A DNA stretch of 64,000 nucleotides from Symbiodinium natans (lineage: Eukaryota > Sar > Dinophyceae > Suessiales > Symbiodiniaceae), in contig CAJNDS010002726.1 of the NCBI GenBank assembly GCA_905221605.1, positions 1 through 64,000 on the forward strand, given 5' to 3'. The notes below the pieces were generated by a model. It saw nothing but the letters and a program-made list of their open reading frames with translations, ran no database searches and was not told the origin of the DNA. Positions 12,200 through 55,815 of this stretch are shown here, in pieces; within the stretch, counting starts at the first letter, position 1; the number at the start of each line of letters is the position of its first letter. Made by a program: the position numbers and the translations under genes.

Positions 12200-13427
12200 C
12201 AGCCGTAACATAGTGTGTCGAGTATGTAGAATTATGCAAGATATGTACTTGTATATGTCTTTGTAAATTCTTTTGTATTCGTACGTATTTGTTCGTAGAA
12301 TCGTAGAATATCTGTTAACACGTATACATGTATCGTGAGAGCAGGCGCAACTTGATGGGGAGCTCAACTTGAAGCCGGGGAGGTCTCAGCCCTGGCGCGG
12401 CGTCTCGAGGCGCTCATGGGCGCAGGCATGTGTGTGTGTGTGAGCAACTCAAGACATGATTAAGAATTAAGACTCAGCACCAAATCACTCAATCATTCAG
12501 AGGAGCCAGAGCCAAAAGGCCGTGACACCTGCAGATTTAGTACTATCATGTTGAGGCGCGGCACCTCGCACGACCCTGGCACCGGTACACGCAGGAGGTC
12601 TCGACAGTGGGTTTCTTGAGCTTCGGGCAACGCCGGAACGCAGGCTGTCGACTGCTCTTTTGCCTTGGGCGACTCAGCGCCGCCATCTATTGAGGGTTCT
12701 GCTGCTCTGCTTGAAGCCCGAGCCACCAGCGCCGTTGGAGCCCAACAGCCCAAAAGGTCCCGAGCCTCCTGTGCCACCGGGGGTGCTGGGCCTCGAGCTC
12801 TACGAGCTGCTGGAGGCGAGGGCAGCACAGTCCTGCACTGGCTTGGACGTTTCTTTGCGGATGTGAGCCATTGGATAGTACATGATGGTATGGGTCTTAG
12901 TAGGGTTGCGACTCTAATAGTAATCATGAACTTAAGATCGTGTAACGCACCACGAAATGGTTAGGGGATGGCTCGTTCGTTGTATGGGTTCTGCGCTGCG
13001 GGCTGCAGGGCTTCAGGGTTTGCCCGGGGGCTCCAAGCGGCGGCTTCGTGGGTGTCACGGGGATTCCAGGTCGAAGGAGTGCAAGGTGAGGGCTTGTTGG
13101 CTCCTTGAGAGCTTGTGCAACGAGACACGGGCAGGCAATGCCTTGTGCGCGGGCGGTCTAAGTTCTTGTACAATTGTGCTTTTTGGTTCAGCTTGGACAG
13201 GTTCAGATCTGGCTTTTAGAGGTTTCGCGCACCATCATTTTAAGCCTGGTACGCGCAGCGAGTACCTTATTTTGAAATATAGGCGTCCTGTAGACACGCC
13301 TACGCCCGAGTTTCAGCCAGTTCTGGACTGAACACTTACAATCTGTAAAACCCTGCAGGCCACAGACGTTCGATCCCCCTTAAAGGGAGAAGTGGGCTGA
13401 GCTCTAGCGATAGAGCTGTGATGTTTA

Positions 13428-13428
<1 letters not shown>
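12200..13428. other. Intergenic stretch, one ambiguous open segment
   Basis: Between the microsatellite and the poly-G run I see no recognisable gene. The segment 12,600-12,960 is open in several frames on both strands, with alanine- and proline-rich translations and no motif, so no call is made. A short (GT)n lies near 12,427-12,441. Confidence 0.45.

Positions 13429-13458
<30 letters not shown>
13429..13458. repeat. Poly-G run (30 G)
   Basis: Thirty consecutive G on the + strand, 282 nt upstream of the start codon of the PAN-domain gene. It could form a G-quadruplex and may mark a promoter-proximal element, but that is inference. Confidence 0.95.
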
Positions 13459-13708
13459 CGGATGTTTTGTTTTTGTTGGTCTGGGCCGGTCAGCGGGGTT
13501 TTTGAAGCCCGAACAGGCCTCTGCATCCATGGGGCCGGAGCAGGTGCGCGTCGGAAGTCCAGGGTTTGCTCTATCCGATTGACTTTCCATGTTCCGGTGG
13601 TTTGGGTTTGCGTTGTGTTGGGGCTTTGGGATGATAGTGGCTGTCTAGCGTTGAATGATCACACCTCAGAGCCGCCATGCCCGCGTCGTGTTCGGTTCAG
13701 ACCGTTTG

Positions 13709-13722
13709 TAGGTAGCTACCTA
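13709..13722. promoter_or_regulatory. 14-bp perfect palindrome before a start codon
   Basis: TAGGTAGCTACCTA is identical to its reverse complement and ends 18 nt before the ATG of the PAN-domain gene. It could be a protein-binding site or lie in the 5' leader near the trans-splice acceptor. No function is shown by the sequence. Confidence 0.5.
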
Positions 13723-13740
13723 AGTTCAGTCAAGCAGAGA

Positions 13741-15240
13741 ATGCTTCGCACCGTTTGCATCCTCCTCGCCCTCCACAGCGGCACGGCCGAGCCCAGCAGC
13801 GATGCGGTGCCGACCTGTGCCAAGAAGGGTGTAACTTATGTGAGCGATGAAGATGCCAAGGGCACGCCCAATGCGGCATGGCTCTACACTCCAAAGATGT
13901 GTCAGATGGCCTGTTACATGAACCCAACCTGCAAGCATTTCTCGTGGAAGGAGGACTCTTTCCCCGGCGGTGCCTGCCAAATCTTCATGGGAGAGGATGT
14001 GCAGGAGAAGACCGATGAGAAGTCGTACAGCGGTCCAAGGGCCTGTGCGGGTGAGGCCCCAGTGAGTGGAGCGTCGATGGCCAGTGCTGGCAATGTCGAC
14101 AACTCGTTGAAACAATTCGAGAAGGATGTTTTCGACTTCCAGAAGTCAAACGAGGTCGGCAGCCAGGTCACCAGCATAACCCACCAGCTGAATCAGGCCG
14201 CACAGGATCTGGACCAGTTTGGAAAGGATTTGGCCCCGAAAATCAATCAAGCAAGCAGTGATCTGAGCCAGAAGGCTAGCGAGTTCCACAGCCAGGTCAA
14301 CCGAGTCGGACAGGATCTCACCAAGAAGGTAAATCAGGCCGTGGACGATATGACCAAGGAGGCCAATCAGGCCAACAGCGACCTGACGCAGCGGACCCAG
14401 GAGTTCAACAACCAGGCTGCCAATTTGGAACAGCAGCTCTCCCAGTTTGGAAAGGATTTGAGCCAGAAGGCCAATCAAGCCAGCACCGGACTGAGCAGTG
14501 ACCTGAGCCAGAAGGCAAAGGAGTTCCGCAGCCAGATCAACCAGTTGCGGCAGGATGTGACCCAGCAGACAAATCGGGTTGCGCACGATCTGACCCAGAA
14601 GGCCAATCAGGCCAGTAGCGACCTGAGCCAGAAGGCAAAGGAGTTCAACAGCCATGCCAACCAGCTCGGGCAGGATCTGACCGAGCAGGCCAATCAGGTG
14701 GGGGACGTGATGCAGTCCGCAGGGTTGAAGGCCAAGGAGGCCACCCAGGAGGCCACCCAGGAGGCCACCCAGGAGGCCCAGATGGCCCCGAGCGCCGACG
14801 AGGTCCTCGGCTCTGCGCCAGGCAGCTCGGGCAGCTCGGGCAGCTCGGGCGGTGGCGACAACACCATGACCTTCGGCGTAATCGGGGGGATCGCTGGTGC
14901 CCTTGCTTTGATGGGCGGCGCGTACTACTTCATGTCCGAAGATGGGAAGAAGAAGAAGAAGAAGTCCAATCGCTCAATGAAGCGTGGCGTCCAGGTGGAT
15001 GGAGCGCCCATGATCGAGGTGGCGCCGGAAGTCCGACAGGTCACCCCGCCGCAGGCCTTCCCGCAGCAGCTCCACAACCAGGTCCGGAATGTGATGACCT
15101 ACAACAGCCAGCAGTCGCCGCGGGCTGTGCCACAGTATTTTCAGGTGCCGCAACAAACCTATGCACCCCAGGCCTACCAACCTGCTGCCGCCTACCAGGC
15201 TACACCCCCGGCGACCTACCGGGGCGTCAATGTTTATTAG
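13741..15240 (+). CDS. Secreted/anchored PAN-domain, hendecad coiled-coil membrane protein
   Basis: A 499-residue intronless gene. The start was chosen at MLRTVCILLALHSGTAE, a typical short signal peptide; upstream in-frame sequence is non-protein-like. Residues about 24-104 hold six cysteines (26, 54, 58, 64, 79, 102) in a PAN/apple-like spacing. Residues about 115-340 form amphipathic helix in 11-residue steps (for example SDLSQKAKEFN, SHANQLGQDLT), rich in Gln, Asn and Asp, as in apolipoprotein or LEA-type hendecads. A Gly/Ser linker leads to a membrane span at about 379-399, then five lysines and a Gln/Pro/Tyr-rich tail that would be cytoplasmic. Likely role: a cell-surface or vesicle adhesion protein with carbohydrate- or protein-binding head and rod (inference from architecture). 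High GC and lack of introns set it apart from the other genes. The coding call is secure; the function is not. Confidence 0.9.
   Translation: MLRTVCILLALHSGTAEPSSDAVPTCAKKGVTYVSDEDAKGTPNAAWLYTPKMCQMACYMNPTCKHFSWKEDSFPGGACQIFMGEDVQEKTDEKSYSGPRACAGEAPVSGASMASAGNVDNSLKQFEKDVFDFQKSNEVGSQVTSITHQLNQAAQDLDQFGKDLAPKINQASSDLSQKASEFHSQVNRVGQDLTKKVNQAVDDMTKEANQANSDLTQRTQEFNNQAANLEQQLSQFGKDLSQKANQASTGLSSDLSQKAKEFRSQINQLRQDVTQQTNRVAHDLTQKANQASSDLSQKAKEFNSHANQLGQDLTEQANQVGDVMQSAGLKAKEATQEATQEATQEAQMAPSADEVLGSAPGSSGSSGSSGGGDNTMTFGVIGGIAGALALMGGAYYFMSEDGKKKKKKSNRSMKRGVQVDGAPMIEVAPEVRQVTPPQAFPQQLHNQVRNVMTYNSQQSPRAVPQYFQVPQQTYAPQAYQPAAAYQATPPATYRGVNVY
14746..14850 (+). repeat. In-gene tandem repeats (ATQE and GSS)
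   Basis: Within the PAN-domain gene, a 12-bp unit encoding ATQE is repeated three times, and a 9-bp GSS-type unit is repeated about three times shortly after. They form the linker between the coiled coil and the membrane span, and are likely length-variable. Confidence 0.85.
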
Positions 15241-38289: not shown

Positions 38290-40500
38290 ATTTTGGCCGA
38301 GGGGTCTGCTCCCCCCCTCCCAACTCGGCTTTTGAAGCCAGGCAGGATTAATCCTGCTTGGAACGTATGTATGCTCTGTGAACTGCCGCATGTTTGTGCC
38401 CAAAGTGTGAGCTCCCGCCCAAACAAGAGATTTGCCCGATCCTGTTTGACATGTATGCCCTGTGAACCGGCGCCACAAAACGAGATTGACGTTTGCAGAG
38501 CAGGTTGGAGTTGAGTGGTGCTTCCTCGGCCTCGCCCTATTTCTTGGCAATGCTTCCTCGGCCTTGCCTTAATTATTTCCTGGCCGGAATCCCCTGTGCA
38601 AATCCCTGACCCTAAGAGCTTGACACGAGGCACTGCATCCCCTTTCAGTTGCGGAGGCTAGACTCTTCTGGGCTTCTCACTCGGCGGGATTCTCTGGCGT
38701 GCGTGGGATTCTGTGGCCTGGGATGTGCTGCGGGATTCTCGGCGGGTCCTTGGGGGTGGGCATCACGGGCGCGGGCCAGGAGATCGGGCGAGGATTGCAG
38801 GAGACCTGCACCACGAGCATAGTTGAGCTACAGTATGGCAGAACTCCACACCGAGTGTGAGGAACAAATCTGCGCAGACGAGTTCACTTTAAGGTGGTGT
38901 GCGAGTGTATATGGCATGAAATGACCCGTATATGCAATGTTACATAGCGGACCGGATGCAGCCCTGAACCTCAAGCAAGACTCCTCAAAGGCAGCACCCG
39001 ATAGATTCTCAAGTAATCTCGGTCTCAGTGTGGTTCGGGTTTATGAGAAAGTTAGGTCGTAAGGCTTCGCCTGCACCCGTTATGGACTTGAAGATCGGAA
39101 TGAGCACCTCCGGGAATCACAGAATGGGCCCAGAGTTCTCTCAGGCCGAATATCACTGCATCGGCAATGCCCTGTAGCAAATGTCCACACCTGACCTCAT
39201 GCAGCTTGCAAAGCTCTCAGATTTTCAGAAAATGAAGAGAAAGAGCACAGCGCTGCACGGATAGGCCTTGCAGTCCATCCTCAGCTGGAGGCCGTGGACA
39301 AAGGCGGGAGCAAAACATGGTTTGGGGGGTTTGGGGGGTGAGTTGCACATTTGAGAAGGCTATAGAGGACTCTTGATGCATTTAACCAAGGAGGGCAGAG
39401 GCGCGCCTAGCCGTAGAAGTTTTCGGGTTCGCTCTTGCTGTCATCTCGCGAAGGCTTTCCAGTGAGGTATGTGAATTGCAGTAATTACAGTGCTTGGCAA
39501 GCTTTCGAATGGTTCGCAATCCACAAGCTCAGGCCCAAAGTCACACGGCTACAAAGCTCTGTGCGCGATCCACAGCTGAAGCCCGAAAGAAGCGTCTGCC
39601 TACTGCCGTAGCATGGGCATTGTTGGGTCTCCTGCCGTGAGCCAGGTATGGCTTCGGAGGAGTCCACTTGGCCATGGCCTTGGGAGTGCTGGGCGGGCTC
39701 AGGACTCGAAAAGGACTCTATAAGCACTCTATAGGGCTCCTAGGTTTGGCATCAGTTGGGGGTTTAGGGGTGCCAGGGATGCGGATTTGAAGCAGGGCCA
39801 ACACCTCAGACTCAGGATTTCGGGTTGGGATTTCGGGAGTTCGGAGTTGTGGGCTTTAGAGCTTTGTGTATTCTTATATAGGGTTTAGCGTGGCTGAAAG
39901 CGGGTTGGAGGACTGACTATAGGGATCCCCAATCTAAGCCAAGCAGCGATGCCCACTTGGGAGTAGCGTTGACCCTTGGGTGATTCAGCCTTGCTCGGAA
40001 CCTCAGCGCTTGAAGCTTCACTGACCTGCAGACCCACTTAGCTCCCAGCCTCGTGCCACTCTTTCGCCATGGGAAACACCTGCTCCGAGCCTTCTGTGGG
40101 TGTGCTCGAGGCGGTCCGGGTGCACCCTGAACCTTTCAAGCCTGAGTCCCACTGTAATCGCTGAGGCGTCTGACAATCCGTAGGGCTCCAATTTCGTTTT
40201 CGGCCGGTGCAGGTGTCAGGGTTCGGGGTTCGGAGGGGCCACTGATTCTTCGCCTGGTGATTATCCAGATCTCTTGACAGTAGGGAGAAGGCCATATTGG
40301 CGGCACACAGATCTGTATCCGCATTTCCGAGGTCCTACGTTTTGGCGTTTCCAAAAAAGTGGTGTGGGGCTTTCGAAGATGCAGTTCCATTTTGACTGAA
40401 TGGTATTGTTGGGGCTTTCGGACTAACGTTCAAGTTCATAGCCCAGCTCCTACACACCCCGCAGCGCAAGTCTTTGGACTTTGTATTCTAGCTTCTTGCA
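38290..40500. other. Intergenic stretch without a supported gene
   Basis: Nothing coding recognised on either strand. The GGGATTCT word recurs at 38,680-38,750 and GTTTGGGGG-type words are scattered. The last 20 nt (TATTCTAGCTTCTTGCAG) look like a trans-splice acceptor for the WrbA gene that follows. Confidence 0.5.
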
Positions 40501-40505
40501 GCAAC

Positions 40506-43500
40506 ATGCAGCAACATTCCCAGGTGGCCATCCAGAAGGGCCTTCCCGCGCAGAAGAAGGCGGCAAGCCCCAGCGTCGCCATCGTTTACTACTCCACGTA
40601 CGGGCATGTGAAGGCGCGGGGTTTTGGGTGCTAAGGATCCGAACCTCAGCTGCCTTAATAACGTGCGTGCACGTAAAGGCTGGGGGGGGGGGTTGAGGGT
40701 TGAGCAAAGGAGGCCTTTTTTGGGCCAGTGAGTTGTCACTTCATGGAGTTCACACAAGGGTCATGCTGGTTCCTATGTTTAGGTGGGCTACGGGGCAATT
40801 CAGGGATTGTCATATTCTGTGCAGCAGGTCAGGAGAGCGTCCATTGCAGCTAGGGCTTATATAGGGCTGGGGGACCAACACCTCCTCAACCCATCCGGTG
40901 TTCCCATTGAGACCACCTGGAAAGGTCTTGGCAGATGAGATCAAGAAGGGCTTGGAGGCCACGGGCACCAGTGCGGACCTCTTCCAGGCTCCGCTTCAGA
41001 GATGTTGAGAGTGGGTCCAGTGTCTGGGGTTTAGAGGGGTTGGGGTTTGCGGGCCGAACGCCCTAAGACCAAAGTACTATCTACCCTCATACGTATTATT
41101 TCGGGACATGTGGATACCCAATTGGGCCTGGCCTGTACGGGGCCTCGGACTTGCCCTCATCGGGGCCTCCGCTCAGACTGTGCACCACGCGGGCGAAGGT
41201 GAGACTTAGAACTCAGAGCTGCTATGAGCTGCTTCCCCACTGAGAACGCAACCCAGCCGCCCCAAGTACCTCTAAGAACCCACCAGCCTGGGTAAACACC
41301 CCATGCGCACTCTTCGAAAGTGCTTGCAGACTGGGCAGGTGCCAGAGACCCTGCCGCCCACAGCTCTTCAGGCTTTGGGCGCACCCGAGACTTTGCAAAA
41401 AAGGGCTTGTGGCTTGTAGCGCTGGAGGAAGAAGAGGTATAGGGGCCTACATTACAGTAGGGTTCACGCAAGGCTTAGTTGCGTCTGAGAGTGTGAGGGC
41501 TGCAGGTCCGTGCGGGGAGGTGTGGAGCCTTGTCTGGGGGCAGAGAGCCCAGCAAAGCCTCCCTGGAGCCAAGGACAAGCCCGCTGACGTGATGCTTCTG
41601 GATCGTGCCTTCCTATCGGAGCTGCCGAAGTACGATGGGCATCTGGGCTCTGATTGGTTGAGGGCGTTTAGTTTCACGCGATTTCGGTGGCATGATGCGG
41701 ACGTTGTCTTCGCATATGTGAACTGCGCCGCATTGAAGCTGGGAAGGCTTTTGTGTGCAAGGCGAGGGACCCTGCTGCCAACACAGATCAAGCGCGCGGC
41801 ATCCCTTCACAAACTGATCAGAGACCAGCAAACCCCCCTCTTCAAGCAAAGCACTACTGGAGACTGGAGAGGTTCATGTTTGGAATGCCCACTCGCTTCG
41901 GGATGATGGCCTCGCAGATGAAGGCTGGCGGCTACTTTTCCTTCTAAACCCGAACGGCGGGAATAAGCCTTTTGCAAACCCCTGAATGCAGGTGTAAACC
42001 AGTGAGCTGTGCCGATGACGGATTCATGAAGCGTGCTACCTAGAAAGAGAGTAGCTAGGTGCAGTAGCTTGGCTCAGAACCAGGACCTTCCGCGGTTGCT
42101 TCTGAAACCTCTGCATCATTCCTACCACATCATCCCAGGCCCCTCAACAGTCGGGCTTAGCATTTTGTATGATTCCTCTGCATTGAGAGGCATTCTTTGA
42201 TGGCACCGGCAGCCTCTGGCAGAGCGGGGCTTTGGCAGGGAAGCTTGGCGCCACCTTCGCCACTTGGCAGCTTTTGGGGTTCCCCCAATTCCTCCTGCTA
42301 GAGGGGCTGTGAATTTCGGTGGCTTGGAAGGCCTTATTGTCCTTTTGGAAAGCCTACACGGAAAGGCGCTCAGCTTTGCCGAGGCAACCAGAGGTTTCGC
42401 CCAGGTCCAAGCTGCAAGACTCGAAAGGTGAGGATAGGCTTTGCCACCTGATTTATTTGTGCCGCTGAAACACGAAGCTTTAAAGAGTTTTTAGGCCCTT
42501 TACTCAGCCCTCACCGGCAGACGAACCCAAATTAAGGGCCCATATGTATGACTCGTGTGTGAAGCTGCCCCTGACCCGGCGAAAACCCAGGAGCCAAGCC
42601 CTGGAAGAAGCTATGGTATAGGAGGGAAGGGGGAAAAGGACGCCAAAGAATTTAGAGCATGGGGTGGACCATCCTCTCGAAGGACCCCACCCTTCCTCGG
42701 AGCGCCTCAAGGTCAGCACTGGCACACAGCAGGGGGGACAGGAGACCACGCACTTCACAGCAGCGGCTCGGCTCCTCTTACGGTCGCTCAGGGGTCCCTC
42801 TGATCCCTTGTTTACTTTTCCGCTCCGGCTGCAGAGTTTACGGACATTTCTGCACAACGCTTTCACGAGTTGAGGTGGTTGCAGAGGCTTTGCATGATAA
42901 ATTCGCAGTTTTGAGCGTCGGAATCGAGGGGTCTAGCCTGGTCGGGGCATTCAAGTGTCGGTTTCAGGGCTTAGTACTTAGGGTTTAGGATTTGCTATAC
43001 TCGTGCTGCAAGGCTCGTCCTAAATTCTGAAGTGTTGCTTGCATCCTAACATCTCGCAGCCATAGGGAGAAAAACAGTGTCCCTGCACAGGTCACCCAGC
43101 TTGTGCATCACGGCATGTGCTACGTGCCCTTGGGATACCAGGCGAGTCTCCATGGTGGCTCCGCGTTTTGAGATAGGTGGAGGCTTTCAGAAGGTGTCGC
43201 AGGCTCACGAATCACGCTCTTGTGGTTTGCTCGAGCATGGTTGCCGTGTTTTGCGTATCTGGTTTAGGCGTGTGGGTTTTGGGATGTCAGGCATTTATTC
43301 CTGCAGAGGGTTTGAAAACTTCATGTTCAAGGTCGGAGTGCTTCGCGGGTCAGGACTGTCACGTGGTTCCGTTCTTGTCTACGTATACTTTCCGGCGAAT
43401 ACAACAATGGTGATCAGAACCGGCAGATCTGCGAAATGGCTTGCCGCGTGACGTTTGTTTGACGAATTGGCGCTTAGCCATAGGACCCTTGCTTGACCCT

Positions 43501-44529
43501 CGGCTTTGCAACAACGCACGGCGCGGTCCTGCATGTCGCCAGGCGGGCGGCGACGGCCAGTTCGACCTGAATGAGATCCATGGCGGCTCTCCATGGGGCG
43601 CCAGCACCTGCTTTTGCAACTGTATGGATCAGGGGTACGTGTTGCCGGCCTTGCAAGTCGCAGAGCCGATTCTCACATTGGTGGTACAAAGGCTCCTCAA
43701 TTTGTTCACAGCCATAGCTGGCCAACTTCAGTCCCACACCCTGCTCAAAGAGGATGCTGCGGCCAATCGGATAGCATGGCAGAGACATGTATGGTCCCAG
43801 TGCATATTTGGCTTTGTTTCCAGTATTTCCAGGTGAGGCTTCTTGCCATGGTTCCGGTGCTTCTAAGCCCCTTTCCCTGGAATTCCCAAATTTTGGAGCC
43901 TCCAAAGCCTGTCCGAGGCACCTTGGCCGGAGCGGATGGCAGCCGCCAACCCTCAGCACCTTGGTCTCCGATGTAAAATCAGGGAGATGGCTGTAAGTGC
44001 TACCCCAAAGCTGCCCAGACTCATCGAGAGCTTGAAAAGGCGCTTCCAATTCAAAGCTCCCAAACCCCCCCAGCACCTTGGTCCTCGCAGCCTTACCCCG
44101 CGCGGCCGCACTTCGCTGACTTGTCCCCGGAATTCTCACTAAACTCCAGGCGCTCGAGCTGAAGATCGCCAAGAAGCAGGGCGAGGTCTTTGGCAACGCC
44201 GCTCGGAGCTGGATTTTGTTTGCTTTGAGGTGGAATTAAGGGCAGCGGTGTTTCGATCAAAGAGCTTGGGGGAGGCAGAGCCCTATGGTGACTTCTGAGA
44301 TGTGGGATGGGGCTGATGGGTTTCCAGGGTTTCCAAAGGGAATTTGAGAGAGGTCTTGTTCACGGAGTTCGCGTTACACAACCTTTCGTCCTTTCGAACC
44401 CGCCTGCAGCCCTTGAAATCAAAGGCCCGCCGAGCCCCCACCCCTTCACCTGTGGGCTTCAAGGCCGTGAAGCGTACGACCACTCCGGCGGCGGCCAAGA
44501 AGCCCAAGGCCAACGGGGTCCACGCTTGA
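40506..44529 (+). CDS. wrbA: WrbA/FQR-type NAD(P)H:quinone oxidoreductase, copy 1 (12 exons)
   Basis: Flavodoxin-like FMN enzyme that reduces quinones by two electrons with NAD(P)H, usually tetrameric and cytosolic. Exons by homology: 40,506-40,613; 40,925-40,987; 41,339-41,386; 41,574-41,638; 41,872-41,923; 42,190-42,258; 42,712-42,765; 43,091-43,141; 43,543-43,603; 43,918-43,955; 44,150-44,200; 44,464-44,529. They total 726 nt (241 aa), in frame. Visible motifs: VAIVYYSTYGHVK (FMN phosphate loop), FGMPTRFGMM, STGTQQGGQETT, LVHHGMCYVPLGYQ, EIHGGSPWGAST and AGADGSRQ. There is an N-terminal extension of about 23 residues, and a basic C-terminal tail (KRTTTPAAAKKPKANGVHA) beyond the usual end. 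Ten introns start GC, one GA; all end AG|G. The ATG lies 5 nt after CTTCTTGCAG, consistent with spliced-leader addition. Copy 2 follows directly. Confidence 0.95.
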
Positions 44530-44830
44530 CTCTCATGGTCTTATCGGCTTGGAGCTGGCGCGCATGGACATGCTCTTTGTTAGGCTTCGGGCTTGAGATG
44601 TAGATTAAGGTATGGGTCTAGGGGCGGTAGAGGATGTGCTGGTTTGGAGAAGGCCCTGTAACTGCAGCTTAAGGTTCAGGGCTTCAGTAAACCCAGTGAC
44701 CCAGTGTTACAGAAGGGTCTGCAAACTGGGACCTCAAGGCTGCAAAAGGGGGCAGCTGCGGACCTGCCCCTCCACGCACCAAGCCTCCAATCCTCCAACA
44801 CATTCAAAGCCTCCCGCCCCCTCCAAGCAG

Positions 44831-47800
44831 GTCTGCGTCGTCTACTACAGCACGTACCTTGGCCGGCTTTTGCTTTAAGTAGCTTCACCAATGGCTACAA
44901 GTTCATTGGTCGTTGGGGTCCACAAAAGCCAGCTAAGGTACGGTCACGTGAAGAAGCTGGCAGACGAAATCGCCGCCTCCATGAAGGAGCCCTGCCCGTG
45001 ATGCGCCCCTTAAGAACGGTACAGGTCAAATTATTTCCCATGCCCACGTTCAACAAATTGGCTGCTAGGTGTGGCCGCCAACCACGTGAGTCGGATTAGA
45101 GTAAGCGCGCTAGTACTGCGGAATGGGCTGCCCAGACAGGGTGCGTTTGGAATAGAAACTAGCGTCGAGTTGCCGTCGAGCTGCAGTAGCATCCACCACC
45201 CTCCTCTATTAAGCACGGACCTGGTGCAGGAGGAGGGCGTGACCGTGGATATGTTTCAAGCGCCCGAGCTTCTGGGTGCTGATGTGCTCAAGAAGATGCC
45301 TGGCGGAATCCAGGGCTTTTGACCCCAGCTTCTCATGGGAGTGGCTGGGGTTCGGCTGCGTTATTGTTGGAACACTGTTGGAACACTGTTGGAACTGTGC
45401 AAGCCTGTTGGGGCCTGTTGGGGGTTGATCAAAGTCGAGTCCAGCATCCCTCAAGCGCCCTCCAGCAGCAAACCCACCGGACTGGAGTGAACACATCCAG
45501 AAATTCCTGCGCACGAACGCCCTAAACATCTGCCCGAAGTCACCTACAGCCCCCCAAAGACACTACAACCCCGCACTCCATAGGATGGGTGCCCCTGCGA
45601 AGCCCTCGGACGCTGTCATGGACCACACGAAGGTCCAGCAGCTTGCGGCCCCTGGGTTTCGGATGGCTGCTTTTTTTTCAGAGGGTTTTCCACTCTCTGT
45701 TTTTGCAGTGAATAAGGGACCCGGGCGTGCGAGCCCAGAAGCGTCTTCAACCTTAAATTCAAGCCCATCTGGCAGCGTCGCAGTCCAAGGACTACGATGG
45801 CATCCTTTTCGGCATTCCTACACGCTTCGGCAGTGCTGCAGCTCAGTGTCTGGACTGCTACGAGCGAGGCTTGAGGTGATTCTGGCTCACACATCTCGAG
45901 TTTCTTCACGAGACCATCATCCTTGGGCCAAAAGCATGATAGGGCTACCGGGCCTGATGATTCGACCTAGGTAAGTGTGCACCCATCTGCCCGCATTTGA
46001 TGCATCGAAGTTTTTTGGCTGCTCATGGTGAGCTTGAATCTCTGAAGCCTTAGCACTCTGCAAGGTTTCAGTCCCCAACGCCCCACCTTAAGCACTTCTC
46101 TGAAAAAAACTCGAGGATGAAGGCCTTCTTTGACAGCACGGGCTCGCTTTGGCAGAGCGGCGCGCTGGCCGGGAAGCTTGGAAGGATTTGGAAGGGCTTA
46201 GTGCAAGGAATCGGGTGGCCAAGCTGGAGGCCCTTGCAACGACCCCTTCGCTTCTCTTACATAGAACACCTACGTCCGCATGAAGCGAGTATAAAAGCTA
46301 ACATGAAAGAAAGATCTTGGGAAGTAGGGTTTGGCTGTCCAGCCCAGGAAGTTGGCTGGTAGCTTCTGCAGCACCGGCACCCTCAACGGCGGTCAGGAAT
46401 CAACCCACATGACGACGCTGCCCCTGGGGCCAATGTTGTCATTGCTGCCATGGTTTTGGCGGCTTCCAGGTATGTTTTCAGGGCCGCTGTTTCGAGAATG
46501 GGGCATTGAAGCCCTTCTGGTTGAAGCTCCGGTTTTCAAGCATCATGCAAGCCGGGTAGCGCTCTAGTCACCCGGGGCATCCGTCTGGAGCCTGTCCAAT
46601 CCCATGAGCTTGGTTGTTTGAGGATGTTTGAGGAGGGTGAGGAACGCAGGGGCAAAAAACTTGTCATGTGAGTACGGGCTTACAGGATGTCAGGCTTTGA
46701 TTTTTTCGGCTCCGGAAGCGGGTCTGAATGCCCCAAGAGTGACGTCTTAAGGACCAACTTCGTGCACCACGGCATGATCTACGTTCCCCTCGGCTACCAG
46801 GCCATCTCTGAAGCCCTGGGTTGGAGCCCCTCTTAACATGCAAAAGAGCTCAGGCGGGAGTCTAGGTTGGGGATTGTCGGTTCAAGTTTTCGGCTTCAGC
46901 TTCTAAGTGAAGCTTCGGCCCACGATGGCCCACGCTGCAGGGAATAAGTGAGACGCAGAGGCGCTGTTAGATCCCAAGCTCCCACCGCTCGCTTGTCGGG
47001 TTCGTTAGAGTGGCCAGTGGAAAAGTATATGTATGTAATCCAGATCCTGGCAAAATCCTATTGTCTCATCACCAGTGCAACCTCTGTCCTGAAGGGGCTC
47101 AAAGCCTCAGCCTGCATTCGACGCCTACGACGATGAGTTTATTTATTAAGCTCCTCGGCAAGGCCGGAGGCGATGGGCAGTTCGACATGACCGAGATCCA
47201 CGGTGGATCGCCATGGGGCGCCAGTGCCGGGGCGAAAATGGCTTTATCCTTTCAAGGCCTTACGCCCTGGCTTTTTCGGGCTTGTAGCTTACACCGCAAT
47301 AAGTCCAGTCAAGCTCATGAAAGAGCCCCGAGTCAGCTGAGGCACCTTTGCTGGGGCAGATGGCAGCCGCCAGGCCAGCGCCATGGAGCTCAAGATTGCG
47401 CGCCGTCAGGGAAAGGCCGGGGGGAATCGAAGGGATGCGGGCACGATGTGGGCACGCTCTCTTTTGGTTAGCGCTGGCTCATTTCCAGCTCGTCGTTCCC
47501 GTGTTCTGCTAAGCCTATCTAAGCCAATCTAAGCTTTGTGATGATAGGATGTAAGGGTACTTTCGAAGGCCCGGGAAGGATATGCCAGATGCAAGAGATT
47601 GCTTGTCTTCTGATGCATGACATTAACAAATACTCACCCATGCCTTTTGGGACTCTCTTCATATGTGCCGCTTTTTGCATACAAGCTTGCTTTCGGGAAT
47701 CTCCGGTGGCATCGACTTTTTCCTCCATGAGGGCAAAGTACCGTTAAAGAATGATGTTTTTTTTTCACTTTTGAAAAGCTACTTGTGAACCGACTTTTTG

Positions 47801-47985
47801 ACGGAGCTTGGTTGTTGTATTCGATTGCAGGGGCTTACCTGAGTGTTCCTGACACGAACAGGGCCGGGTGAAGTTGGGCTTGCGGCCATGTGCGCAAGGT
47901 CTTTTTGTCCCGGATTTCAGGCAGAGTTGATGTTCTTCACACTTCGCAGGTCTTCGCATCGAAGGTGAAGCAGATGGTCAAGTGA
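44831..47985 (+). CDS. wrbA: WrbA/FQR-type NAD(P)H:quinone oxidoreductase, copy 2 (5' exon not found)
   Basis: Tandem paralogue of the preceding gene. Exons: 44,831-44,853 (VCVVYYST); 44,938-44,986; 45,230-45,294; 45,584-45,647; 45,790-45,845; 46,116-46,172; 46,348-46,419; 46,752-46,800; 47,163-47,223; 47,342-47,415; 47,950-47,985. They total 606 nt, in frame, ending SKVKQMVK. Motifs: YGHVKKLADEI, ILFGIPTRFGSAA, AFFDSTGSLWQSGALAGKL, STGTLNGGQEST, FVHHGMIYVPLGYQ, GGDGQFDMTEIHGGSPWGAS and FAGADGSRQ. The start exon is unresolved: sequence just before 44,831 is open (PPAPSKQ) but has no convincing ATG, so the first exon lies between 44,530 and 44,830 or the copy lacks one. Donors are GT three times, GA three times, GC four times. 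It lacks the basic tail of copy 1. An intron is missing relative to copy 1 between exons 10 and 11. Confidence 0.93.
45365..45398. repeat. Short tandem repeat in a copy-2 intron
   Basis: The 12-mer TTGGAACACTGT occurs about three times in a row inside the third intron of the second WrbA copy. Confidence 0.85.
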
Positions 47986-50900
47986 ATCATCGAGCCAGTT
48001 GGGCGTTCGCCCTCAAGGGATTTTCTTGGAGGCCACTATCGCTCACACTCGCTTCTGTTGTAGTTATCACTGCGTTGCAGTACGGATTTAGAGGGGGCAC
48101 AGTCATGTACTCCAGTACACCTTCGGTTGATTGTGATTCACTGTTGAGTAGATATATGCATGCAGTAGTTTTACTTAATACATACATACTATCTATACTG
48201 GTATATATATATATATATATCTGCATGCATGCATGCATGCATGCATGGGTGTTTGTGTGTGTGTGCGTATGGATGTAGAGACATGTACCTGCGTGTAGGA
48301 AGGGTCTTGAGCTTAGGTGTATGTAGGATGTACTGGTATGTTGTGCTCTCTCCATGTGAATGCAGCGTTGTTTGCTGCTGCGCCTCTCTGACCCTTCTCC
48401 TCGACTAACCCGCTAAGTCTTTAAGTAGACCAGCAATCTTGTTGAAAGTTACTGTGTACGGTGCTAAGATGTACTTGACAAGACGGTTTGGACATCGGTC
48501 GCCACGATGAGCTATTGATGTGTATGTTGCTGGAAGCCCCACACCGCCTTCAGCCTTTATTAAAGCCTTATCCCCTAAGACGGCTTAGGATTAGAACTCC
48601 TCAAGAAAACCCTTGACCAAGCCTGGCTGTTCTGCTGCAGGGTGCAACCTTAGCATGGACCGCCGGGCAGTTTGCAGTTCCCAAGTCCTGGCAACTGCCA
48701 AAGGCAGTTGGCATCGGATGATGTGGACCGCAGGAGCAGTCTCTGGAACTATGATGGGCTGCTTCTGCTCTTCTGCTCTTGTTCGGTTTTGCTCTCCCCT
48801 CTGCAATGGCTTAGGGCGAAAGGTGCAGGTTCCTGGACACATTATGGGCCTGCATTTACGTTCTTTCCCTTCTTCGAGACCTTGACAGAGCAGCGCTCTG
48901 TCCCAGTGCATCGAAGTTCTTACCAGCAAAGCAATGAGCTTCCAAAAAGGATTTCAAGCTTCGGCTGTTTGGCACTTCGGGAACCCCTGCGATGAATTCT
49001 ATCTTTGATAGATCCCTAAAACCCTTGCAGGCGCCGCTGCCCACCGAAACAAAGGTTCAAGTCTTCCCCCATACTGTATTGGGCGTCTGAAGCATAGGCG
49101 ATGTTTAGGCTAGAATGGCAGCTGGAAGTTCCCTCTCTCTGGGCTTCAGGCTTTCCCTGCAGTTCAGGCGGCTAAACTTGAACGCGTCTGTGAGTTTTGA
49201 AGCAGAAGCTGACCAGTCAGAACTGCACTTCGAAGGGCGTCGAAGGGCTGTAGGGCTTAGGCGTGGAAGCTAGCTTTTTTGCAGAACTTCCTTATCGTGT
49301 ACGAGGTAAAGTTCACCCCTTGCCTTCAGACGTGAGAGATCTGGTGGCGTAGTCTTTGCAACCAGCACTGAGTAGAAGAACACTTCAGAACCCCCGACCC
49401 CATGGACCCCAACTGCCGCCGTCAGAAACATCGAGTTTGTATACATTCTACTTTGAGACTACCCCTCCCACATGATCCCCCAAGTCCCTTGGCGCACTGC
49501 GTGCATTTATCTGCATAGTTGCAGCGGGATTTTGGAGGGGTCCAAGAGCCTTCATGTCAGGCTACAAGACCTATTATTTGGACCTTTTCACCCTCATTCT
49601 CCCATCCTGGCTTTTACCTTCTCGACTCAACAGATTAACTCCTAGAGACAAAGGTTATGACGGGAGAACATGAGGGGTGTCTTTTACTGCTGTTATTCCT
49701 GGTGTCATCATGAAGGTAATAAAGGTGCGGGGAGAGCGAGAGGTGAATATCAATTCTTATCTAAGGTTGATTAGGGCCCTTACATCCCTTCCAACCCCCT
49801 GCCCCCCCCCCCCTCCCCCCCCTTCCCGGTTCCTTCTTCCCTTCACAAGGCTCGTCTTGCCACTCAACATCACCGGTGCCGCGCCGGTGGGAGCATATGC
49901 AGGGATCGCCGGGGGCCCCCGGCTTCTTTTGCGAGTTTTTCAAGTTTGTTTTGTCACTCATTTCTTTTTTGCTGCGTGTTTTGTCAGGCAACTTATTCTT
50001 TGGATCTTCCACGAATAAACGTGTCTTACATTCTATAGTTGATTTTGTCTTTCCTTTGAGTCTCCATGCGGCATGCTCGTGCATTGTATTGAAGGCATTT
50101 GTCTATGAAAGGCCTCTTTCATAATGTATTCCTTCACAATCGGTTCGCTTTATTCATTACGAAACTAACATGAGCGCGCCCAAGGCACCTGTACATTGCG
50201 AGTCCTTGCACAACGTAAGCAAGGCATGCCCGCACTCCAAGGTCCCAGAATATGCCCCCCCCCCCCTCCCCAAACACATGTCCCTTAAGTCCAGTAGCAC
50301 CCAAGGCTGCTGGAAGCTCCCTCGGCGGAGGCTTTGGATCTTCATATGTGAGGGGCTTTCAGGGTTACGGGGCATGCCAGGGCTTTTGAAGCTGCTTCTG
50401 TTTATTTTTTCCTCAGATTGGGTTTCAGGGTGCCCTTTCAAAGGCCTTATGGCTGGTGAAGGCTCCTGAAGATCTGGGATCTGAAAGTTTGGAAAGGAGG
50501 TCGAAAGCTCCCTCAGTCCAGAAATCCAACCTGCAAGACCGCACGTGGTGCCTGGGACGGTGCTAAGTTGAGTTGCCCTTTCCTGGTCGGTCAGGTTTCC
50601 ATGGCAGCGGTAAGCAAGAACAAGCTTCGCTGCGGTTGAAAGTTGATTGCGATGTTGGGATTCGATCTTTTGCGCTGCTGACCTCGCTGTGAGGGGTTTG
50701 TGCTGTAGCTGTACACGCACTATAAATGTCTCGACAACTTTTGGAAGAGGACTGAAGCACAAGGGCGCCACCATTTATGGCTGTATGCACGGAGCATCAG
50801 TGCCAGATGGATGTAGGAGGGAGCTTGGGGATGACTTCAGGCTCCAGTGCCCTACAGGGGTTGGGGTTGCAAGCACTTTGCCTAAGAAGCTCCAGGCTGA

Positions 50901-52573: not shown

Positions 52574-52735
52574 ATTGGGGGTGGGGGGGTGGGGGGGGGG
52601 GGGGGGGGGGGGGGGTTGGTGGGGGGGGTTGGGGGGGTGGGGTTGGGGGGGGGGGGGGGGGGGGTGTGGGGTGGGGGGTTGGTTGGGGGTGGGGCTGGGG
52701 AGCGTCCAGGGAAGAAGGGGGGGCGTGAGGCCCTT
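52574..52735. repeat. G-rich low-complexity block
   Basis: About 160 bp of G runs separated by single T, A or TT on the + strand. It encodes only glycine/tryptophan/valine in any frame and is not a gene. Strong G-quadruplex potential. Confidence 0.95.
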
Positions 52736-53263: not shown

Positions 53264-54140
53264 ACTCCAGACTGCAGATTTCCAGAGCGAATCTGGAGCA
53301 CCCCAGACTCCAGACTCGAGATTTCCAGAATAAATCTGGAGTATCGGGGCCCTGGACTCCAGAATCTGGAGTCCGTTTTCTGGAGTCCGGGGCTCCGGTA
53401 CTCCCGTTTTTTTTTCTGGAAATCTGGAGTCTGGAGTCCGGGGTTTTTTGGAGCCCGGGGTACCCACACTCCAGACTCCAGATTTCCAGAATAAATCTGG
53501 AGTACCTCCAGACCCCAGACTCCAGATTTCCAAGTCCGTTTTCTGGAGTCCGCGGCCCCGGTACTCCAGTTTTTTCTTTCTGGAAATCTGGAGTCTGGAG
53601 TCCAGGGTACTCCACATTTTTTGGGGCCCGGGGTACCCAGATTTCCAGAATAAATCTGGAGTACCTCCAGACCCCAGACTCCAGATTTCCAGAACGAATC
53701 TGGAGCACCCCCAGACCCCAGACTCCAGATTTCCAGAATAAATCTGGAGTATCGGGAGTATCGGGATTATCGGGGCCCCGGACTCCAGAATCTGGAGTCC
53801 GTTTTCTTGAGTCCGCGGCCCCGGTACTCCAGTTGTTTTTTTTCTGGAAATCTGGAGTCTGGAGTCCGGGGTACTCCACATTTTTTGGAGCCCGGGGTAC
53901 CCACACTCCAGACTCCAGATTTCCAGAATAAATCTGGAGTACCTCCAGACCCCAGACTCCAGATTTCCAGAACGAATCTGGAGCACCCCCAGACTCCAGA
54001 CTCCAGATTTCCAGAATAAATCTGGAGTATCGGGATTATCGGGGCCCCGGACTCCAGAATCTGGAGTCCGTTTTCTGGAGTCCGCGGCCCCGGTACTCCA
54101 GTTATTTTTTTCTGGAAGTCAGGAGTCTGGAGTCCGGGGT
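53264..54140. repeat. Palindromic ACTCCAGA/TCTGGAGT repeat array
   Basis: About 880 bp built from the words ACTCCAGA and its complement TCTGGAGT, with GATTTCCAGAATAAATC and its complement-like partner. Larger modules repeat: the junction GTCCGTTTTCT recurs at about 53,371, 53,534, 53,797 and 54,066, so the last three modules are spaced about 263-270 bp. Each module carries a TTTTTTCTGGAA stretch, a GGGGTACTCCACATTTTTTGG segment and several inverted pairs. Both strands stay open in several frames because the unit lacks stops, giving long WSLESG-like translations that are not genes. No spacers of CRISPR type are present. Confidence 0.97.
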
Positions 54141-54169: not shown

Positions 54170-55815
54170 TACGGTTTAGTGTTTGTTTTTTTGGGTTTGG
54201 GGTTTGGTAGAGTTTAGTGTTTAGGGTTTAGTGTTTAGTGTCTAGTGTTTAGGTTTTGGTTTGAAAGGTTTAGGGTTTACGTTTTGGGGTTGAGGGCTAA
54301 GCGACTTGGATAAAGTCTAAGCCCTAAAAAACCTTGTAATGATTAAGTGTTTAAACCCCTAAAGCACTGAAACCCCCATGTTGTTTGGTTTGGGGTTTAG
54401 GGCTTAGTGCTTAGGGTATAGGGTTCAGGATTGGTTTTTCGGGTTTAGGGTTTAGTGTTTAGGGTTTAGTGTGTAGGTTTCAGGGTTTAGTGTTTTGTGT
54501 TTAGGGTTGAGTATTAAGTTTAGGGTCTAGGGTTTAGGCTTAGGGTTTAGAATCAAGCTGCTTGGCTAAAGCCCTAAACCTAATAAAACCCTAAAGCATC
54601 TGAAACCCCGACGGGATTTTGGTTTCAGGTGTAGATTTAGTAGGGCTTGAGGTTCCGGCTGTGGGGTTTACTGTTTAGGGTTTAGGGTTTAGTGTTCAGA
54701 GTTTAGGTTGTAGGGTTTGGTGTGTAATGTTTAGGGTTTAGTTTTTAGGGTGTAGTGTGTAAGTGTTTAGGGTTTAGTGTTTAGGGTTTGGTGCTTATGT
54801 GTTTAGGGTTTCGTGTTGAGTGTTTGGGGTTTGTGGTAAGGGCTTAGTATTAAGTTTCTTAGGGTTAGTGTTTAGGGTCTAGTGCAGAGTGTCTAGGGTT
54901 TAGTGTTAAGGGTTTCGGGTTTGGTTTTTAGGGTTAAGGGTTTCAAGGAATTTCATAAATCTAAATGATCTGGGGAAGGCACCGGGGCTTCCCCAGACCA
55001 TTGTCAACTTAAAAAACCCTTCTGATTAGGGTTTAGGGTTTAGTGTTCAGGGTTTAGTGTGTATGGTTTAGTGTGTAATGTTTAGGGTCTAGTTTTTAGG
55101 GTGTTGCGTTTAAGTGTTTAGGGTTTAGTGCTTAAATGTTTAGGGTCTCGTGTTAAAGTGTTTGTGGTTTGTGCTAAGGGCTTAGTGTTAAGTTTTTAGG
55201 GCTAGTGTTTAGGGTCTGAGTGTTTAGGGTTTCGGGTTTGGTTCTTAGGGTTAAGGGTTTTAAAGAATTTTACAAATCCAACTGATCTGGGAAAGGCACC
55301 GGGGCTTCCCCAGACTATTGTCAACTTAAAAATTCCTTCTGATTAGGGTTTAGGGTTTAGTGTGCAGGGTTTAGTGTGTAGGGTTTAGTGTATAATGTTT
55401 AGAGTCTAGTTTTTAGGGTGTAGCGTTTAAGTGTTTAGGGTTAGTGCTGAAGCGTTTAGGGTCTCGTGTTAAATGCTTGGGGTTTGTGCTAAGGGCTTAG
55501 TGTTAAGTTTTCAGGGTTAGTGTTTAGGGTCTAGTGCTGAGTGTTTAGGGTTTAGAAGGGTTTTAAGGAATTTTACAAATTTACATGATCTGGGGAAGGC
55601 ACCGGGGCTTCCCCAGACCATTGTCAACTTAAAAAACCTTCTGATTAGGGTTTAGGGTTTAGTGTTCAGGGTTTAGTGTGTATGGTTTAGTGTGTAATGT
55701 TTAGGGTCTAGTTTTAGGGTGTAGCGTTTAAGTGTTTAGGGTTTAGTGCTTAAATGTTTAGGGTCTCGTGTTAAAGTGTTTGTGGTTTGTGCTAAGGGCT
55801 TCGTGTTAAGTTTTC
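54170..55815 (+). repeat. Degenerate TTTAGGG-like block with a nested ~310-bp tandem repeat
   Basis: About 1.65 kb in which most 7-mers are variants of TTTAGGG (TTTAGTG, TTTAGGT, TTAAGTG), reading in the G-rich orientation on the + strand. From about 54,950 a higher-order unit is visible three times. It contains GATCTGGGGAAGGCACCGGG then CTTCCCCAGA, at GGCACC positions 54,978, 55,295 and 55,598 (spacing 317 and 303). Each unit has a 10-bp inverted repeat (TCTGGGGAAG / CTTCCCCAGA; mismatch in the second copy) in otherwise telomere-like sequence. This looks like decayed interstitial telomeric DNA that was later amplified. Confidence 0.93.

Follow-up and report, generated by a model that had tools for sequence, protein, structure and literature searches.

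A tandem-domain WrbA gene of Symbiodinium natans and the possible origin of its 23 introns

In a 64,000-nucleotide stretch of Symbiodinium natans DNA (contig CAJNDS010002726.1, positions 1 to 64,000 of the forward strand; hereafter the window), two WrbA-type coding regions follow one another, each split by many introns that seldom fall at matching places. Is this a pair of neighbouring paralogous genes, and how did two related coding sequences come to be interrupted so differently? A preliminary description had proposed two adjacent duplicate genes, the first starting at 40506, in which most introns were gained or moved independently. We found instead that the locus at 40069-47985 (+) is one gene of 24 exons and 23 introns, whose spliced model encodes a double-WrbA protein of 442 amino acids. 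The reading we favour, with a probability of roughly 80%, is a single fused gene for a tandem-domain WrbA, formed by an old duplication and fusion, after which each half received its own introns, many by insertion of transposon-like elements called introners.

Gene model

The region was first examined by reading 39500-48800, with a six-frame translation and an exon model; the corrected model, built with homologous proteins as a guide, has a coding sequence of 1329 nt including the stop. The spliced product aligned without a gap column to two relatives, P0003 from Symbiodinium sp. CCMP2456 (400/442 residues identical) and P0007 (349/442), so that all 23 junctions agree with both. P0007 is a 442-residue open reading frame (ORF) from contigs of at most 1571 bp, in which introns of such size would not fit, consistent with a cDNA origin. 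In a third comparison, P0002 shared 399 identical residues with 33 gap columns; its sole gap within 4 residues of a junction lies at intron 1, where the N-terminus of P0002 differs. All 23 junctions had the form |G..AG|G, every acceptor being AG followed by G, while the donor was GC in 16 introns, GA in 4 and GT in 3. The features below rest on the corrected model; exon 1 is further supported by the alignment and the beginning of P0007, alignment also supports exons 2, 13, 14 and 24 and intron 13, repeat comparison introns 4, 7, 12 and 14, and position comparison introns 8, 9, 10, 20, 21 and 22.

40069-40110 (+), exon 1, encoding MGNTCSEPSVGVLE, true start
40111-40523 (+), intron 1, GC-AG, contains ATG 40506
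40524-40613 (+), exon 2
40614-40924 (+), intron 2, HVK|V, GC-AG
40925-40987 (+), exon 3
40988-41338 (+), intron 3, FQ|V, GC-AG
41339-41386 (+), exon 4
41387-41573 (+), intron 4, GAP|D, GA-AG, repeat GAGA/GACA
41574-41638 (+), exon 5
41639-41871 (+), intron 5, within YDG, phase 2, GC-AG
41872-41923 (+), exon 6
41924-42189 (+), intron 6, QMK|A, GC-AG
42190-42258 (+), exon 7
42259-42711 (+), intron 7, ATF|V, GC-AG, repeat GCCA/GTCA
42712-42762 (+), exon 8
42763-43090 (+), intron 8, TA|V, GC-AG
43091-43141 (+), exon 9
43142-43542 (+), intron 9, GYQ|A, shared position 1, GC-AG, repeat GCGA/GCGG
43543-43603 (+), exon 10
43604-43917 (+), intron 10, A|S, phase 1, shared position 2, GC-AG, repeat GCAC/GCAC
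43918-43955 (+), exon 11
43956-44149 (+), intron 11, PS|A, GC-AG, repeat GCAC/GCGC
44150-44197 (+), exon 12
44198-44463 (+), intron 12, GN|A, GC-AG, repeat GCCG/GCCG
44464-44508 (+), exon 13, linker AVKRTTTPAAAKKPK
44509-44830 (+), intron 13, located in the linker between the halves, GC-AG, with TGA 44527-44529 inside
44831-44853 (+), exon 14, start of second WrbA domain
44854-44937 (+), intron 14, ST|Y, 84 bp, GT-AG, direct repeat GTAC, terminal inverted repeat of 15 bp (13/15)
44938-44986 (+), exon 15
44987-45229 (+), intron 15, MK|E, GA-AG, repeat GAGC/GAGG
45230-45294 (+), exon 16
45295-45583 (+), intron 16, KK|M, phase 2, GA-AG, repeat GATG/GATG
45584-45647 (+), exon 17
45648-45789 (+), intron 17, QLA|D, GC-AG
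45790-45845 (+), exon 18
45846-46115 (+), intron 18, AQ|M, phase 2, GT-AG
46116-46172 (+), exon 19
46173-46347 (+), intron 19, AG|K, phase 2, GA-AG, repeat GAAG/GAAG
46348-46419 (+), exon 20
46420-46751 (+), intron 20, TL|T, phase 2, GC-AG, repeat GCCC/GACC
46752-46800 (+), exon 21
46801-47162 (+), intron 21, GYQ|A, shared position 1, GC-AG, repeat GCCA/GCCG
47163-47223 (+), exon 22
47224-47341 (+), intron 22, A|S, phase 1, shared position 2, GT-AG
47342-47415 (+), exon 23
47416-47949 (+), intron 23, QGK|V, GC-AG
47950-47985 (+), exon 24, ending VFASKVKQMVK*, stop 47983-47985

The TGA that had been taken as the stop of copy 1 thus lies within the 322-nt linker intron, and the fusion had escaped notice behind this intronic stop and a GC donor. 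Two separate tandem genes, expressed from independent promoters or spliced-leader sites, would fit the fact that copy 1 read onward meets this TGA in frame, the presence of an in-frame ATG at 44612 in an open stretch upstream of copy 2, and the occurrence of tandem genes in dinoflagellates. However, fused ORFs of the same length align gap-free with the linker included, and 40 of 120 listed homologues are double, leaving the two-gene arrangement with hardly any probability. The gene start also changed from 40506 to 40069: P0007 begins MGNTCSA, and the ATG at 40506 was rejected since it falls inside intron 1. A start with MG was counted in 27 of the 40 listed doubles, at residue 1 in 22 and after an upstream extension in 5.

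As for the introns listed in the preliminary description, 19 of 21 positions were right; the site given as GNA was one codon off (GN|A), that given as TAAA two codons off (TA|V), and the introns at 40111-40523 and 44509-44830 were absent. Three choices of the first exon model were also discarded: a linker GT donor at ANG|V, an intron 4 acceptor giving GAP|QSLPG.. (now GAP|D at 41574), and another acceptor at intron 17, replaced by QLA|D at 45790.

Homologues, predicted function and age of the duplication

The protein search was made with the uncorrected joined model of 447 residues, which differed at the N-terminus and at a few junctions, and returned 1122 proteins, the best 120 of which were listed. 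The top 13 were proteins of 420-663 residues that covered 92-100% of the query, and were not single-domain WrbA. Using a profile from 14 single-domain relatives, we found two full-length WrbA domains in the 40 doubles already mentioned, and among the top 52 only P0052 had fewer than two domain stretches; the window gene itself carries two full domains and a short linker in one ORF. Transcript labels (mmetsp or eukprot) were present for P0015, P0019, P0022, P0025, P0026, P0030, P0033, P0039 and P0049, with P0022, P0025 and P0026 labelled as Amphidinium massartii (taxid 160604). The double WrbA appears to be old and widespread in dinoflagellates. A search with the C-half returned 3132 proteins; among the best 120, most of them without an organism name, the only named stand-alone dinoflagellate single-domain relative was P0123 (Effrenium, 227 residues), which falls within the N-half clade of the tree described below and is probably a fragment of a two-domain protein. 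By tblastn no further WrbA copy was found elsewhere in the window (5 of 45 matches outside 40000-48000, best E 0.66). Rfam at gathering scores gave no match, a scan for genomic relatives in viral contigs gave 6 pattern matches, none confirmed, and megablast against phages gave no match. A literature search aimed at double WrbA found no paper and, among the 20 of 28 records listed, no title naming such a protein.

Profile scores place both halves among the WrbA-type NAD(P)H:quinone oxidoreductases, above the curated cut-offs (TIGR01755, 202.5 and 206.8 bits with a cut-off of 132.5; NF002999, 218.8 and 225.8 bits with a cut-off of 141). The AlphaFold model of P0003 (predicted local distance difference test, pLDDT, 89.3; predicted template modelling score, pTM, 0.90) has a flavodoxin-like WrbA fold, with WrbA/Pst2 as the closest structures. 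In sequence each half is a full-length member of the WrbA/Pst2/FQR1 family (TIGR01755; PDB 3b6i, 5mp4), whereas the 14 matched PDB sequences are single-domain proteins of 188-232 residues and the chain here holds two domains. Both domains are predicted to bind flavin mononucleotide and to carry out two-electron quinone reduction. WrbA is normally an oligomeric flavoprotein, and the fusion may act as a built-in dimer. The MG start makes N-acylation possible, and such predicted acylation could perhaps provide a membrane tether.

The two domains of the window gene are 65% identical to one another (131/201), compared with 94% and 93% identity of the N- and C-domains to their counterparts in S. microadriaticum P0001. 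We built a tree of 123 domains from both halves of 41 full doubles, the window gene included, and 41 chosen one-domain rows from both searches; doubles with a partial domain (e.g. P0013, P0014, P0017, P0042) were excluded from the tree and from pair counts. C-halves of Symbiodiniaceae, Amphidinium and others formed one clade (bootstrap 100), N-halves stood apart from it (bootstrap 47), and N and C together formed one clade (100). The one-domain rows P0052 and P0121-P0124 grouped within the N or the C clade and probably represent incomplete doubles. The doubles P0045 and P0047-P0049 were sister to the main N+C clade (100). At 4-fold silent sites, the window halves matched at 25 of 66, against 22.1 at saturation. 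The tree, a sequence-based estimate, puts the duplication before the Symbiodiniaceae-Amphidinium split, and together with the saturated silent sites this argues that it is old. With an old duplication, unshared intron positions are expected and need no special explanation.

Other doubles differ in several respects. P0012 and P0011 have identical runs of 40 and 29 residues between their own WrbA halves and are candidates for gene conversion. The name line of P0041 (Skav203068, with the prefix of Fugacium kawagutii) states a 1504-bp locus for 463 residues, leaving at most 112 nt for introns; judged by this name line, some double-WrbA paralogues may have next to no introns. Beyond the main group, long or double proteins of WrbA type include P0045/P0047-P0049, P0053 (Gymnopilus) and, known from the listing alone, P0213 (Sphenostylis) and P0219 (Morella); the fungal P0053 suggests separate fusions.

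Intron positions and border repeats

We compared 11 N-domain with 11 C-domain positions, counting the linker intron on the C side and omitting intron 1, which lies outside the domains. As had been described, only two positions coincide exactly, GYQ| (phase 0) and A|S (phase 1), and at A|S the donors differ, GC at 43604 and GT at 47224. Uniform random placement expects 0.21 coincidences (P=0.016), while placement restricted to sites before G expects 0.45 (P=0.069) and placement before G and after A/G expects 0.77 (P=0.17). The coincidences are thus not clearly above G-restricted chance, so that parallel insertion, inheritance and conversion are all possible. Both shared positions lie in the most similar block of the two halves (36/40 residues identical), where third-position matches (20/36) were much as elsewhere (50/95); this ordinary matching does not indicate recent conversion in this gene.

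Inheritance of the two shared introns from the pre-fusion gene, or their conversion between halves, with the rest being gains, is compatible with a fused gene that later gained introns and stands just short of even odds. It is favoured by the similarity of the block and by the long identical runs in P0012 and P0011, but the ordinary third-position matching counts against it, as do the lack of shared sequence between introns 9 and 21 or 10 and 22 and, weakly, the perfect GCAC repeat kept at intron 10, as in a young insertion. We consider it somewhat less probable, and hold only tentatively, that all intra-domain introns were gained after the fusion and that the two shared sites are parallel introner insertions into the same preferred target; if so, the fused gene would be a natural replicate experiment on introner landing sites.

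The remaining positions were earlier said to lie often within a few codons of each other. Six of 11 are within 12 nt, against 4.1-4.6 expected, which is not significant (P=0.19-0.29), although nearest positions are on average 13.3 nt apart, mildly closer than the 24.5-26.8 nt expected (P=0.03-0.07). The latter value, and the spacing of introns 8 and 20 (2 nt) and 6 and 18 (7 nt), would suit the sliding of the same ancestral introns by a few bases in each half. Sliding is nevertheless highly improbable, given the non-significant clustering, offsets of 11-36 nt in 7 of 11 cases, which are long for sliding, and introns without mutual sequence similarity. Differential loss, in which all positions were present in the ancestor and each half has since lost roughly half of them, draws support from the excess of coincidences over uniform chance. 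It is unlikely, if less so than sliding, as such an ancestor would have carried 20 introns within some 200 codons, 7 of the nearest pairs being separated by only 2-19 nt, and as 4-bp direct repeats in both halves indicate insertion after the halves diverged.

These repeats are seen where an intron begins and where the downstream exon begins. Intron bases +2..+4 matched downstream exon bases +2..+4 at 37 of 69 sites, against 19.8 when permuted (P<5e-5), with 11, 14 and 12 of 23 at positions 2, 3 and 4 (7.3, 6.3 and 6.3 expected; P=0.05, 0.0007 and 0.008), while identity at positions 5-14 was at background. At least three of four bases matched in 13 of 23 introns (4.5 expected, P=5e-5), the repeat being exact in 5 (0.7 expected, P=4e-4) and three of four in 8 more. 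With intron 13 left out, the signature was present separately in introns 1-12 (P=0.006) and 14-23 (P=0.002). As a group signal, this is the pattern of a 4-bp target-site duplication (TSD) whose upstream copy holds the 5' splice site. Intron bases +5..+9 showed a CTNGG consensus (C 16, T 13, G 18 and G 15 of 23). The clearest introner candidate is intron 14, with GTAC on both sides and a 13/15 inverted repeat at its very ends; a looser local end-pairing test picked introns 5, 13, 14 and 18 (4/23) at P<0.05, with about one expected, intron 14 alone standing out (0/200 shuffles). A window-wide scan for the TSD pattern on the + strand, including the gene, gave 26 against 18.6 (P=0.03).

In S. microadriaticum, introners are described as having 4-bp TSDs; they carry the 3' splice site and take the 5' site from the TSD (PMC9860276). 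By this precedent, the 4-bp signature here would mark element insertion. An introner would duplicate a 4-bp target beginning with G and supply its own AG 3' splice site, the upstream target copy serving as the 5' splice site and the donor being GC, GA or GT according to what the exon target held. A 5' splice site taken from the TSD would explain the varied donors. GC/GA-AG borders are given for 25-74% of Symbiodiniaceae introns, and introners are thought to drive intron gain in dinoflagellates (PMC11453091). The proposed history would then begin with duplication and fusion of a single-domain gene early in dinoflagellate ancestry, as homologues and tree support, the date being estimated, and continue with separate acquisition of introns by each half, many through introners. 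Independent gain is thereby supported, at the level of sequence, for many introns, as the preliminary description had proposed from the wrong premise of two neighbouring genes; among the rest, some ancestral introns may have been lost, and many introns may be old and eroded.

Several observations weigh against this history. First, P0003 is a genome-predicted protein, and no transcript of this very locus was seen. Second, position 2 alone reached P=0.05, and upstream offset -4 reached P=0.028 among 26 offsets tested. Third, pairing of an intron's own ends was not significant over all introns (P=0.10-0.56) and stands out in intron 14 only, which is modest given 23 tests. Fourth, no intron-intron similarity, and with it no multi-copy family, was found within the window, and the TSD-pattern scan gave 18 against 13.9 outside the gene (P=0.12) and nothing on the - strand. 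Lastly, the bootstrap of the N-half clade was only 47, and in P0045 and P0047-P0049 the protein's own N- and C-halves pair together (73), a possible sign of a second duplication or of homogenisation.

Comparable systems and other features of the window

The arrangement resembles several known systems. The S. microadriaticum introners (Gozashti et al. 2022, PMC9860276, Fig. 2B) share the 4-bp direct repeat, element-borne 3' site and target-derived 5' site, whereas here a clear terminal inverted repeat occurs in only 1 of 23 introns and no multi-copy similarity was found within the window. Amoebophrya introner elements (Farhat et al. 2021, PMC7789003) likewise have 3-5 nt direct repeats at intron borders and non-canonical donors, but are defined by inverted repeats of 8-20 nt, clear here in one intron. 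The long genes for soluble peridinin-chlorophyll proteins of Symbiodinium (Reichman and Vize 2014, PMC4201569) also arose by duplication and fusion of a short gene, once, with later independent intron gain; they differ in having two introns in clade B long genes, with one in a clade A short gene and the others studied being intronless, as against 23 in a gene for a WrbA flavoprotein. A fused duplicate offers two coding copies in the same expression and genomic setting, which allows the gain of introns to be compared inside a single gene. The locus also cautions that tandem 'paralogues' of dinoflagellates may be single genes.

Elsewhere in the window, long degenerate TTTAGGG-like tandem repeats of interstitial telomere type, partly in higher-order units of ~300 bp, occupy 54208-55814, and a piece of intron 8 resembles 54394-54508. 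A poly-G array lies at 52575-52700, and arrays with a 44-bp unit of the CCAGACTCCAGATTTCC type at 53314-54029. An open stretch of 608 codons at 13414-15237 (+), whose Pfam similarity to apolipoprotein/coiled-coil families is weak and below cut-off, is possibly a large exon.

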